A stretch of 64,000 nucleotides of DNA from assembly GCA_036872755.1 (NCBI GenBank), contig JAVHNS010000001.1, positions 1 through 64,000 of the forward strand. Reading direction: 5' to 3'. The notes beneath the pieces were generated by a model. That model was not told the origin of the DNA and did not search any database. It was given only the letters and a program-made list of their open reading frames with translations. Of the stretch, positions 1 to 9,034 are shown in pieces. Each line of letters begins with the position of its first letter. Within the stretch, counting starts at the first letter, position 1. The position numbers and the translations under genes were made by a program. This DNA comes from Orbilia blumenaviensis. Taxonomy: Eukaryota; Ascomycota; Orbiliomycetes; Orbiliales; Orbiliaceae.

Positions 1-147
1 TAACCCTAAACCCTAACCCTAACCCTAACCTAACCCTAAACCCTAACCCTAAACCCTAACCCTAACCCTAACCCTAACCCTAAACCCTAACCCTAAACCC
101 TAACCCTAACCCTAAACCCTAACCCTAAACCCTAACCCTAACCCTAA
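1..147. repeat. Telomere repeat tract (C-rich strand on +), mixed hexamer and heptamer units
   Basis: The + strand reads CCCTAA/CCCTAAA from the first base, so the window starts at a left chromosome end with the G-rich strand running 3' outwards. By eye there are about 15 hexamers (CCCTAA), 7 heptamers (CCCTAAA) and one pentamer (CCTAA), intermingled rather than in blocks. The tract stops at base 147, where degenerate units (TCTAACTCTAAAA) begin. TTAGGG is the usual fungal unit; the interspersed TTTAGGG units are unusual. Confidence 0.97.
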
Positions 148-245
148 TCTAACTCTAAAACTAACCCTATTCTCCCGCCCACCCGCCCATTCTAACTCTA
201 ACACTAAAACTAACCCTATTCTCCCGCCCACCCGCCCATTCTAAC
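148..245. repeat. Telomere-junction direct duplication (two ~48 bp units)
   Basis: A segment of degenerate telomere-like sequence followed by CCCGCCCACCCGCCCATT occurs twice in tandem, at about 148-191 and 192-235. The second copy carries an extra TAACACTAAA. It marks the junction between true telomere and subtelomere. No coding capacity. Confidence 0.8.
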
Positions 246-3021
246 CACAACCGCTAACCGCTAACTCTAAACCGCTAAAACTAACACTACAACCGCAAAA
301 CCACCCTAACCCTTTCAACCCCCTTCCAAACACCGCTAAAACCACTTCAAACCCTCAAAACCGCTTCAAAACAACTTAAACTCTTTTAAACCCTCTTAAA
401 CAACCCCAAAAACACCAAAAACACTTTAAAACTCATTAAACACATCAAAAACACTTCACAAATCACTTTCAACACACTTCTACATCTTTATACACTACTA
501 CACATCAAACCAACAATCTAATAATTCAATTTCCTTTTTTACCATCAAAAACATCAAAAACAACTTTACTAAACTTTCCACTCACTTTCAAACACATTAA
601 ATAATATATTACTTCACCAAACTACTCATTTACTATCAACAACAATATCAACACTAATACCAACATCAACTTCCAAAATAAATCTTCTCCCATTTTACAC
701 ACACTCTACTCTTTTATTCTACTATCTTCCAATTCTTCCATTTTTCCATTTTTTTTATTCTTCTACTTTTCCATTCACCCATCTTTCTATTCTTTTATTC
801 TTCTATTTTTCCATTCATTCATTTATTCTTTCATCCATTCCTTCATCCATCTATCCTTTTATTTTTCCATTCATCCATTCTTCTATTCTTCCATTCATCC
901 ATTCTTCCATTCATCCATTCTTCTATTCTTACATTCTTCTATTCTTATATTCTTCTATTCTTCTATTCTTATATCCTTCTATTCATTCATCTTTCTATTC
1001 ATTTATTCTTCCATTCTTCTATTCTTCTATTTTCCCATCTATCTATTTATCTATTCATTCATTCATTCATTTATTCATCTATTCATCTATCCATTTATTC
1101 ATCTATCCATTTATTCATCTATCTATCTATTTATTAATCCATCTTTCTATTTTTCTATTCATTCTTCTATCCATTCTTCTCTCTTTCTATTTTTCCATTT
1201 TCTAATACATACTTCTTTCCCTTCTACTTTTCCACCTACTATTCTCTCTACATCATTTCATATTTTTTATTTATTTTTTCCACCATTTCTCATTTAACAA
1301 CTATCTTATTCATTTTTTCTTTTACTAACACTCACACTCATTCTTCATTTATCTACCATCAATTCCCTTCTCTTTTTCTCCTTCTTTCTTTTTTTTTTCA
1401 CAAATATTTTCCTCTTTATTTTTCTAACAATATACTATCCATATTCACAATCATACATCCACAATCACACATCCACAATCACACATCCACAATCACACAT
1501 CCACAATCATACGTCCACACTCCAAAATATTCATCTATTCTACTATCACACATTTCCAATCCACACATCAACTTCCTTTCTTTTTCCAACAAACACTTTA
1601 CTCTTCTTCATCCATCAATTTCAAACACCCTTCCTATCTTCTTCTTATATATATACATTTTTTTTCCATTTCCATTTTTCCAACATCATTCATATTCTCA
1701 ATATACATACAAACACATACTTCATTCATTCTTTTTATTCTACATCACCCACCACCACCCATCTTCTCTCTTAATTAACATCACCTTTCATTTTTATTCC
1801 CTCCCCTTCATCTTTTAATTTCAAATAATCTCCCCACCACATTTTCTTTTTACATACAAACACTTTCTTTCATTTTCTTTTACCAAAATACTATTCATCT
1901 ATATCATATACATACAAACATACACTTCATTAATTCATTTTATTATACAATATCTCATCTTACAATTCATTTCAACTATTACTTCCACCACTACTTCCAC
2001 CACCACTACTCCTACTATCATTTCCACCACTACTTCTACCACCGCTTCTACTACCACTTCCACCCATTATCCATCTTTCCTTTTAATCACCACCACATTT
2101 ATTCTTCATATCTCAACTTTCAATATTCCTCCTCTTATTCCTTTTACATATTATATACTTCTTTCATTCTCATTTTTTAAAATACTATTTACATTCACAA
2201 ATATATTCCCAAATCTACATATTCATTTACACAAACATTTATAATTATACTTACAATCACACTTACAAACATACATTTTTTTTTATTTTTTTCTATTATA
2301 CAACATCTCATTTTCTTTTACAAACCACCATTTCCACCACCTCTACTACTTCCATTACCTCCACTACTTCTATCACTACTTCCACCACCACTACTTCTAC
2401 CACCACCTCTACCACTTCTACCACTTCAACCGCTACTTTTATTACCACAACCACTCACCGCCCACCTTCTCTTTTAATCAACATTATACTTATTCTTCAT
2501 ATATCAACTTCTAATAATTCTACTTACATTTCTTTATATATACACTTCTTCCATTCTCATCTCTCAAAATATTATTTACATTCACAAATATATATATTCA
2601 TTTATACACTAACATCTACAACCATATATACACCTACATCTACAATTACATTTACAAACATATACTTCCTTTACTTCTTCTATTCTACAACATCTCATTC
2701 TTCCTCACACCACTTCCACCACCCACCACCCACCACCCATCTTCTCTCCTAATAAACATCACACTTATTCTTCATCTACCAATTTCAATCAACCTTCCTA
2801 TTATCTTTTATACACACTTCTTCCTTTCTCACCCTTCAAACAACTATTCATATTTACCAATACTTTTACCAACATATTCATACCCACAAACACATCTACA
2901 AATATATTTATATATATATACACAAACATTTACAATCAAACTTACAAACACATCCATAAATATATTCACAATCACACACTTTATTTATTCTCTTTATTAC
3001 ACAACATCTCATTCTATCTCA

Positions 3022-6189: not shown

Positions 6190-6440
6190 TTCTACTCCTA
6201 CTCTTCCTTCTACTTTTATATCTACTTCTATTTCTATATCTACTTCTATATCTACTTCTATATCTACTTCTATATCTACTTCTATATCTACTTTTATTTT
6301 CTACATTTATTTTCACCTTCACCTCCACCTTCACCTTCACCTTCATATTCACCTTCATATTCATATTCATACCCATATTCATATTCACAATCATATTCAC
6401 ATTCATACTCACATCTATATTCATATTTACCACATACACA
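6190..6440. repeat. Short-period repeats: 12-bp TCTACTTCTATA, then 6-bp CTTCAC/CATATT
   Basis: From about 6,210 to 6,300 the 12-mer TCTACTTCTATA repeats about seven times with small changes. It passes into hexamer repeats of CTTCAC and TTCATA up to about 6,440. Open frames over it encode arginine/serine/tyrosine or glutamate/tyrosine runs and are not supported as genes. Confidence 0.7.
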
Positions 6441-9034
6441 TATATATCCACTCATATATTCAAATTTATCATATATACACATTAATCAATTATCTCATCA
6501 TCTCCACAAATACCATACCTCTCACCCGCCATTTCTCTTTATAAATACCACGCTACACACATTCATACAATATATATTTATATACACACTTATTCATCAT
6601 TCTACTCCATAAACTTTCTCACCATCTCACTCATCCACTCTCTCACCCACTCTCTCACCCACTCTCCCACCCACTCTCTCACCCACTTACCCACTCGCTC
6701 TTCTCCCCCTTAATAAATACTACACTAACTCTTAATACATTTATTATTATATATACATATTTACATTTATCATTTATATATTTACATTCAACATATCCAT
6801 TATTATATACATATTCACATTCATCATATTCATCACACATATATACACACTCTTTATTACTCAATCATCTCACGAACGCCGCTTTTTCTTTTAATAAACC
6901 CGACGCTTATTTTAAATACAAACACACACATTCATACATTCATATTCACCTCTACTATATATATATTCTAATCACCCCACAAAAATCTTTTACCCGCTTT
7001 TTCTCTTCATAAACACCACACTTATTTTCCAATACATTCCTTATATACACATCCATATTCACCTTCACTTTCATATATACATATAAAATATATTCACATA
7101 CAAATATACATACACACACACACACACATTCATACATTCACATTCACATTTACCCATCATTCTAATCACCCCGCAAATACTCCTCCACCCGCCCTTTCTC
7201 TTCACAAATACCACTCTTATTTTCAATAATATCTATATACACATCTACCCACATTCACTTTCATATTCATATTCATATTCATTCTATTTTAATACAAACC
7301 TTTTCACCCTCTCACCCACTTATCCACCCACTTATCCACCCACTTTTTTCCTCCTTCAATAAACACCACGCTTACTCTCAATATACAAACACATAAACAC
7401 ATATCCATATACACTCTATTTATACCCCACTTTTTCTTTTTATAAACGCCACGCTTACTCCCAATATATAACCATCTACATCTACATTTATTCACTATTT
7501 TATTTTTTACTTTTCATTCCATACACCCCATATATACTCTATTCACCATTCTACTCCTATCAATCACCCCGCTCTCCTCTTCTCTCAAAACACGCCACGC
7601 TTATTCCTAACATACATACATACATAAACTCTATTCATTATTCCATCCACATTTTAACACTCTTTCACCTCCTTTTTTTTTTTTTTTAACATTACATTTA
7701 TCTTCAACATATCCGCTCACACATTCATTTATATATATCTATTCACTAAAACCCCCGCCTACCCTTTCTCTTAATAAACCGACGCTTATTTTCAATATAT
7801 ATACACCCACACAATCATTCATTTATATATACACTAACCACTATTCAATTTATTCAAACACCCCACCCACCACCCCCCCTTTTTTTTTTTTCAAATAAAC
7901 CCGACGCTTATTTTTAACACACTAATATCTACATTCACATAAACATTCATACTTACATTCATATATAACATTCACTTATTTATCATTTTATTACCTTTCC
8001 ACTTATTCTCCCTTCATCCCGCTTTCAATAAACACCGCGCTTATCCCACAATATACACATATACATTTATTCACCATTCTATTCTCCCATCACCTACTCT
8101 ATCGCCTATCCTTTTTTCACAATAAACCACCACCACGACGCTTATTTTCAATATATACACACATCCAAATTCACATACACACACATATATACATATATTC
8201 ACATACATCTTCACATCTATTTATCACTCTATCATTTCATCAACACTCTTCACCCACCATTTTTCTTCTCTCAACAAACATAACACTTACTATTAACACA
8301 TACACATATCTATTCATACACACACACACTCTCTCTCTTTCTCCCTCCATATTCACATACATCCCACTATTCAATCATTTCACCGACAACCCCGCCCACC
8401 TTTTTCTTTAACAAACAACTTATACTTATCTCTTTATCAAATATTTCCGCCACACTTACACTCACGCCTACTTTTACTTTTTCTTCAAATACTTTTCCAT
8501 ATTCACATACATCTATTACTTATACATTTTCTCTTTCTCTTTCTCAATCCCGCAAATACCTTTCGCTCACAAACGCTTTCATTTTTCTTCATCAAACACC
8601 ATATATCCAAAACATACACACACTTCGCAAATATAAACTCTTTTAACCGACGCTTAATATACACACAATCAAATTCATTTACCGACGCTTAACCCTCATA
8701 CATTCAAATTCCAACAAACTCAACCCTCCCACTATACATCACTCTTTTTCACATAAATTTTCTATATATTATATCATATTTCTACTTTATATTTTACATC
8801 ACACGCCCTTCATCTACAAATATATAATCTTCTTATTCTTCATAATATCAAACACCCGACGCTTTCTAATAAACACTCTCAACCGCTTTTTCAAATAATA
8901 CACCTTCCATATCAATAACTTATTTCCACCATTTCCACATCAAACAATCTATTCATACACTATCTCATTCTCAAACGCTTTCCCCAATAAACATCGCTCA
9001 TTTTATTACAATTCATTTTAATTTTTTCCCATAT

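Follow-up and report, generated by a model that had tools for sequence, protein, structure and literature searches.

At its left end, contig C1 of Orbilia blumenaviensis (JAVHNS010000001.1) carries, behind the telomere, a zone of several kilobases in which one strand has no G outside CpG, and we regard this zone as the mark left by a mutation process specific to one strand, which matches none of the described processes we found in the open-licence literature. The window analyzed here comprises bases 1 to 64,000 of C1, the first of 23 contigs in an assembly of 42,458,278 bases; at this end the + strand is the telomeric C-rich strand and the minus strand is the 3'-ending G-rich strand. Bases 1-9,036 of the + strand contain no non-CpG G, and the first three of the 9,117 in the window are located at 9,037, 9,866 and 10,164. 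A reading made from the letters alone (the sequence-only reading) had let the zone run to about 9,034, which holds to 9,036, with exceptions near 9,035 and 9,864; these two are indeed the only ones before 10,164, but both positions were two bases off. It had also stressed that A, C and T all occur frequently and that CpG is spared. Both points are borne out, as the + strand between 170 and 9000 consists of 32% A, 31% C, 36% T and 1.0% G with 92 CpG, the dinucleotides AG, GG and TG are absent, and not a single non-CpG G occurs over 8.9 kb in which CpG is retained. The longest run without non-CpG G within 10,164-64,000 is 112 bases (152 on the opposite strand) and does not exceed 1,282 bases at 13 further loci at contig ends, most of them rich in AT and poor in C; therefore, the length of the G-free run in C1 is beyond chance. 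No description of G-free or CpG-only chromosome ends was found among the papers listed by searches of the open-licence PMC literature, judged by title and start of the abstract.

Recurrence at other chromosome ends

A 21-base telomere pattern gave 113 matches (42 forward, 71 reverse), all at 18 contig ends, and the survey is limited to these ends; left out of it are the right ends of C1, C6, C8, C11, C14, C22 and C23, and those contig ends without the pattern that were inspected (several) are AT-rich. At seven of the 18 ends (left ends C1L, C6L and C14L, right ends C10R, C12R, C15R and C20R) the first kilobase past the telomere, 986 bases in the case of C15R, has no non-CpG G and retains 175-442 non-CpG C, whereas the remaining eleven ends have 14-170 non-CpG G in this kilobase. 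The run to the first non-CpG G is at least 986 bases at the seven rule-following ends versus at most 82 bases at the other eleven. C20R is the same sequence as C14L over 5.7 kb (no substitutions and 24 gaps, every one in a homopolymer run), so that the seven ends represent six distinct sequences; this identity may reflect either a recent end duplication or a double assembly. The polarity relative to the telomere is identical in all six distinct zones, which extends the strand-specific loss proposed from C1 alone, and the mirror rule, a loss of non-CpG C, is found at none of the 18 ends, the lowest count in the first kilobase being 11 at C13R. The comparison with other ends, suggested along with the sequence-only reading, thus gives a divided answer, with the rule present at a minority of ends.

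Past the telomere the zone extends over 8.9 kb at C1L, 4.8 kb at C14L and 2.1 kb at C6L, with the first non-CpG G at 4,901 in C14 and at 2,268 in C6; at C10R, C12R and C15R the rule is intact to the end of the 1.2 kb read, hence this length is a lower bound. The zones retain C at 16-46% and A at 19-33%. Among the eleven other ends, eight are AT-rich to a varying degree, C2R has an AT-rich first stretch followed by ordinary composition, and the last two are taken up below. By eye, the C3R and C5R ends (loci L009 and L020) show arrays whose repeat units resemble one another; towards the telomere of C3R, G as well as C becomes rare, at C5R much less so.

Divergence of repeat copies in the zones

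The zones consist for the most part of degenerate arrays whose units differ from end to end. Arrays were taken from Tandem Repeats Finder, each copy was aligned to its own consensus and mismatches at non-G consensus positions were counted. In the zone arrays only nine of 996 such mismatches (C1 279, C6 202, C14 298, C10 153, C12 33, C15 31) go to G, all nine in C1, and as every G in the C1 zone is part of a CpG, these gains all fall in CpG. In the control arrays 65 of 187 mismatches go to G (43/131 in the C1 interior, 17/25 at C3L, 5/31 at C18L), the interior control arrays of C6 and C14 contributing no mismatch. In the zones G either fails to arise or is rapidly removed, and the comparison with the controls indicates that it is removed continuously and not once. 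A one-off event was considered as well and is rejected, since the array copies diverged without gain of non-CpG G.

In DNA searches against its own genome, the C1 zone matched itself and elsewhere almost only low-complexity stretches. The C1 stretches behind these matches lie at about 3,025-3,415 and 6,305-6,427 of the window, and a G-bearing relative may be among the places matched elsewhere. Searches with converted sequences gave, for the two orientations, 27 and 20 rows at the cut-off for G-to-A, 27 and 27 for G-to-C, 90 and 77 for G-to-T, and 18 and 16 for the unconverted sequence. The best six rows of each run are mainly low-complexity and do not discriminate between the conversions, and the excess for G-to-T is uninformative because the added T simply matches T-rich zones.

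CpG retention and the inner boundary

At the inner edge of the C1 zone, between 9,000 and 10,150, 53 CpG are present, and on the G-rich strand non-CpG C per G is 0.005 compared with 0.891 in ordinary DNA, and CpG per G 0.136 compared with 0.215. From the inside outwards, C1 has 42 CpG per kb at 9-10 kb, then 24, 14 and 11 (6-7 kb), followed by 21 at 5-6 kb and 1-4 at 1-5 kb; the first kilobase contains 10 CpG, with CCCGCCC and ACCGC units. Non-CpG G flanking a CpG (GCG or CGG) makes up 21 of 30 in C1 10,150-10,500 and 12 of 17 in C1 10,500-10,700. For C1 10,150-10,500 and C6 2,250-2,700 together the share is 29/45, against 1,602/14,304 in five interior stretches, and it is lower in the weaker transition pieces (6/17 in C6 2,700-2,950, 4/12 in C14 5,050-5,300, 6/35 in C14 5,300-5,600), all of these pieces being partly repeat copies and thus not independent.

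Homologous repeat copies at the C14 boundary are consistent with the CpG rule. The repeat AGCGGTTGCTCCGCTTCC... lies at the inner edge of both the C6 and the C14 zone, and a sliding comparison identified five C14 copies that differ at no more than 9 of 28 positions. In one column, TG of the innermost copy stands against TA in two outer copies (TTGCT to TTACT) and CG in the other two; in a second column, CGG of the innermost copy is CGT in three outer copies, and the fourth outer copy lacks the CpG too. These are the only two informative columns, with G replaced by A in one and by T in the other. A further G, present in the C6 copy, is uninformative on the boundary, because every one of the five C14 copies already has A there. 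Against the gradient, one of the three C6 copies, located towards the inside, reads TA at a position at which the outermost reads TG. The same scan of an interior control of 53 kb gave two hits at 10 or fewer mismatches and none at 8 or fewer.

CpG itself seems to be lost mostly as CpG to CpA, because the 16 occurrences of the core CACNCTTA in C1 comprise seven with CACG, seven with CACA, one with CACC and one with CACT. All seven CACG lie at or beyond 4,464, and 14 of the 16 occurrences match a longer core too (7 G, 5 A, 1 C, 1 T).

Replacement of G

According to the sequence-only reading, the zone is what C-to-T change on the G-rich strand would leave if CpG were protected, and in this simple form the proposal lacks support as a full explanation. 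G-to-A change sparing CpG predicts 41-44% A and a CpA observed/expected ratio of 0.59-0.71, whereas the zones show 19-33% A and a ratio of 0.88-1.79. Replacement ratios were calculated with the bases after C as internal standard, for C1 9,000-10,150, the stretch richest in remaining CpG; they amount to 0.96 (0.82-1.13) for A, 1.12 (0.98-1.35) for C and 1.53 (1.22-1.81) for T. The A ratio of ordinary DNA is 0.83-1.06, hence there is no A excess. G-to-A is predicted to give 1.52-1.86 for A and G-to-T 1.65-1.82 for T; an even mix of replacements is predicted to give 1.02-1.26 for A, 1.11-1.38 for C and 1.15-1.28 for T, which is within or near the intervals of the C1 boundary. At the C14 boundary, a short stretch of 440 bases, the A ratio is 1.24 (0.69-2.04). 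The T ratio in the other zones is 1.62 at C10R, 1.41 at C15R, 1.02 at C6, 0.94 at C12 and 1.02 at C14. As repeats bias all composition, dinucleotide and replacement-ratio measures, we conclude that simple G-to-A change on the + strand is insufficient and draw nothing further from them.

RIP-like tracts and candidate enzymes

The same genome contains tracts that resemble the product of repeat-induced point mutation (RIP). At C8L (locus L037, 1000-7000), with a telomere in front, nearly all C is lost over long tracts on one strand and then on the other. Three of these tracts have 0.035, 0.024 and 0.028 CpG per G, and 0.133, 0.064 and 0.119 non-CpG C per G; CpG is not spared, since relative to ordinary DNA it falls as much as other C. 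The zones share with RIP, including the C8L tracts, the loss of cytosine over kilobase-long tracts, the repeats and the presence of genes that may be RID-like. In contrast to the AT-rich RIP-like tracts, they retain C, exempt CpG from loss and all show the same polarity, and neither C-to-T change on either strand with an AT-rich product nor a lack of CpG exemption is found in them. The distinction from RIP drawn in the sequence-only reading is therefore upheld by the genome's own RIP-like DNA.

Matches to PF00145 occur at three places. Two short genes are above the cut-off; NCBIfam places them in the general dcm superfamily, below its cut-off, and by a sequence motif they look RID-like. A gene on C3 has a methylase part of 369 amino acids that matches PDB 7r76 with an E-value of 1.7e-123, the match covering this part; the entry is named Rad8, and we take the protein to be the Cryptococcus Dnmt5. 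By this similarity the C3 gene is DNMT5-like and thus a candidate CpG maintenance methylase. DNMT5 has been described as a CpG maintenance enzyme (PMC13297926), and DIM-2 is reportedly absent from Orbiliomycetes (PMC7882544). The OTT_1508 deaminase family, known for A-to-I RNA editing in Neurospora (PMC12754623), has seven matches in the genome, six of them above the cut-off, and PF00383 has six; both were weighed as possible agents of the cytosine loss.

Proposed mechanism

We tentatively favor, at somewhat short of an even chance, an ongoing telomere-anchored mutation that strips cytosine from the 3'-ending G-rich strand unless it stands in CpG, and that acts via exposed single strands. The chromosome end would repeatedly become single-stranded by resection, a long 3' overhang, break-induced copying or R-loops, and cytosines of the exposed 3'-ending strand would be deaminated or otherwise damaged. 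Such cytosines would be beyond excision repair because the partner strand is missing, and bypass might insert A, T or C opposite them in a mixed fashion. Cytosines in CpG would resist, most simply by methylation (DNMT5-type maintenance) or by being bound, and would then disappear only slowly, in most cases through CpG to CpA changes of the C-rich strand. The result would be a naturally occurring counterpart of the yeast single-strand mutation, recurring over evolutionary time. At the telomere the C-losing strand has its 3' end, so that resection leaves it single, and at all rule-following ends non-CpG cytosine is missing from this strand only; a maintenance methylase that could protect CpG is putatively available in the DNMT5-like gene.

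This is in line with yeast cdc13-1 cells, in which resection exposes the 3'-ending strand to strand-coordinated cytosine mutation and, with APOBEC3G or bisulfite, telomere-adjacent cytosines of this strand are targeted as in the zones; C-to-T and C-to-G are described in yeast subtelomeres when uracil is excised, and we count these mixed outcomes as a likeness as well (PMC3521656). Unlike this laboratory-induced system, the zones are natural, saturated and CpG-sparing, and C-to-T is not clearly leading. As neither C-to-T nor C-to-T with C-to-G is dominant in C1 9,000-10,150, and informative columns number only two, we understand the likeness in the sense of working in a similar way and not of membership.

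In a wider form, which we consider possible though on balance improbable, an end-specific mutator, dedicated or incidental, would keep the 3'-ending strand cytosine-free save for CpG, as a natural methylation-resolved conversion of the DNA next to the telomere, the inner limit of which would record the reach of exposure at each end. If this is true, the length of a zone, which is 2 to 9 kb in those measured, would be a record of single-stranded reach over evolution, the CpG that remain would serve as a map of protection passed on by inheritance, perhaps as methylation, and an end-specific mutator separable from RIP would exist in Orbiliomycetes, a group in which DIM-2 is reportedly absent (PMC7882544).

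Several points weigh against mutation of exposed single strands. Single-strandedness, the type of damage and methylation, and with them every chemical step, are what we infer from the pattern, and C-to-T should lead in such chemistry, yet the base composition and the dinucleotide ratios given above disagree with it. T amounts to 50-66% in four of the six distinct zones, which mixed bypass does not predict. C3L and C18L have ordinary composition right up to the telomere, and C8L and C13R lost C on the opposite strand in a RIP-like manner. The control arrays differ widely in their share of changes to G, and the repeats of a zone share ancestry, so that site counts are not independent. Furthermore, we know of no reason why deamination alone should spare CpG, and no DNA cytosine deaminase was identified, the OTT_1508 proteins belonging to a family of RNA editors in Neurospora.

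Alternative explanations

A cytosine deaminase that converts C to T on the G-rich strand in the manner of bisulfite, while CpG is shielded, would account for the CpG sparing, the single polarity and the near-complete loss, and the CACNCTTA copies without CpG, which are mostly CACA, as well as TTACT in two outer C14 copies point the same way. We nevertheless consider it unlikely, because A content, CpA ratio and the A ratio of the C1 boundary all miss the predicted values and three outer C14 copies changed CGG to CGT and not to CGA.

Selection or repeat biology, in which G-free seeds expand by slippage or G is harmful in transcripts or in structures of the 3' strand, agrees with the array character of the zones and with units that differ between ends. 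G-free expansion had been named in the sequence-only reading and is right in this respect, but expansion alone fails to exclude G from diverging copies, as 996 counted changes brought no non-CpG G; selection would need to act on a single G in up to 9 kb and yet ignore CpG, which makes this explanation rather unlikely.

Damage to guanines of the C-rich strand, such as oxidation, that is fixed mainly as G-to-T and affects G after C less, is in our view a quite unlikely source of the zones. The T ratio of the C1 boundary is near the prediction, it is raised at C10R and C15R, the zones are T-rich and the change from CGG to CGT fits; however, C6, C12 and C14 have no T excess, TTGCT to TTACT is a G-to-A change, and we know of no cause for so strict a CpG exemption. 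Oxidative mutation of single strands in yeast is described as falling chiefly on C, and the leading change there is C to T rather than G to T (PMC6527239).

Very unlikely is RIP of the RID type acting strand-wise over long tracts. The presumed RID-like genes, the kilobase-long C8L tracts of C loss and then G loss, and the many tandem repeats of the zones would favor it, but the C8L tracts lose CpG together with other C, the zones keep C, and RIP hits both strands whereas six distinct zones have one polarity to the telomere. A sequencing or assembly artefact is highly improbable, since, although the homopolymer-length differences between C14L and C20R betray an imperfect, long-read-like consensus, both ends lack any substitution in opposite contig orientation, and six distinct sequences on several contigs and in both orientations obey one rule that 11 other ends do not.

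Mutated DNA abutting telomeres is reportedly also a feature of the AT-rich chromosome ends of Neurospora, as Wu and colleagues are said to have described in 2009. Subtelomeric AT-rich elements of Aspergillus flavus likewise abut telomeres, some element classes with constant polarity; unlike the zones they are AT-rich, and the excerpted report describes no strand or CpG rule (PMC9910759). The ends of Encephalitozoon cuniculi resemble the zones in an excess of G on the strand that runs from the core towards the telomere, attributed to asymmetry of replication, transcription and deamination; in contrast to the zones, this is a skew, and the excerpted report describes neither total loss nor a CpG rule (PMC4704409).

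Other features of the window

Table 1. Position of the G-free zone, its repeats and the adjoining sequence in the window.
Feature	Position	Strand	Basis
Telomere, C-rich strand, mixed CCCTAA / CCCTAAA units	1..169	+	Tandem Repeats Finder and sequence
Last CCCTAA-like telomere unit of C1	ends at 147	+	Scan of telomere-bearing ends
49-bp duplication near the telomere, with CCCGCCCACCCGCCC	144..245	+	Tandem Repeats Finder and sequence
G-free zone, without G outside CpG (minus strand without C outside CpG)	148..9036	+	Base counts
Dispersed core CACNCTTA	2258..8458	+	16 occurrences in 1-9,036
Degenerate 51-53 bp tandem array, unit around CCCGACGCTTATTCTAAATATA	5294..6066	+	Tandem Repeats Finder
Boundary stretch, 2 non-CpG G only, CpG still dense	9037..10163	+	Base counts
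Inner transition, tandem repeats bearing AGCGGT	10164..10700	+	Tandem Repeats Finder and base counts
Inner flank, ordinary sequence, weak G deficit (C 2,223, G 1,821, skew -0.10)	11000..20000	+	Base counts

A sequence resembling the motif of the 49-bp duplication, but without CpG (CCCTCCCACCCACCC), was seen by eye at the C15R end. Within the inner transition, an 18-bp array with AGCGGT is located at 10560-10684; the motif resembles a telomere unit with an inserted C and recurs in the transition of C6 as well as next to the telomere of C17R. Further inwards, a 54-bp tandem array at 18792-19316 (9.7 copies, 94% match) is open in several frames on both strands. A subtelomeric gene block at 29419-38431 consists of a DEAD/Helicase_C open reading frame and three long open reading frames without Pfam match. 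The helicase frame (29,419-31,401) suggests a host in the Orbiliaceae: it matches PF00270 and PF00271, and among 7,991 candidates scored it had two matches at E of 1e-20 or below, one of them a protein of Arthrobotrys musiformis with 66% identity over 59% of the length of the frame.

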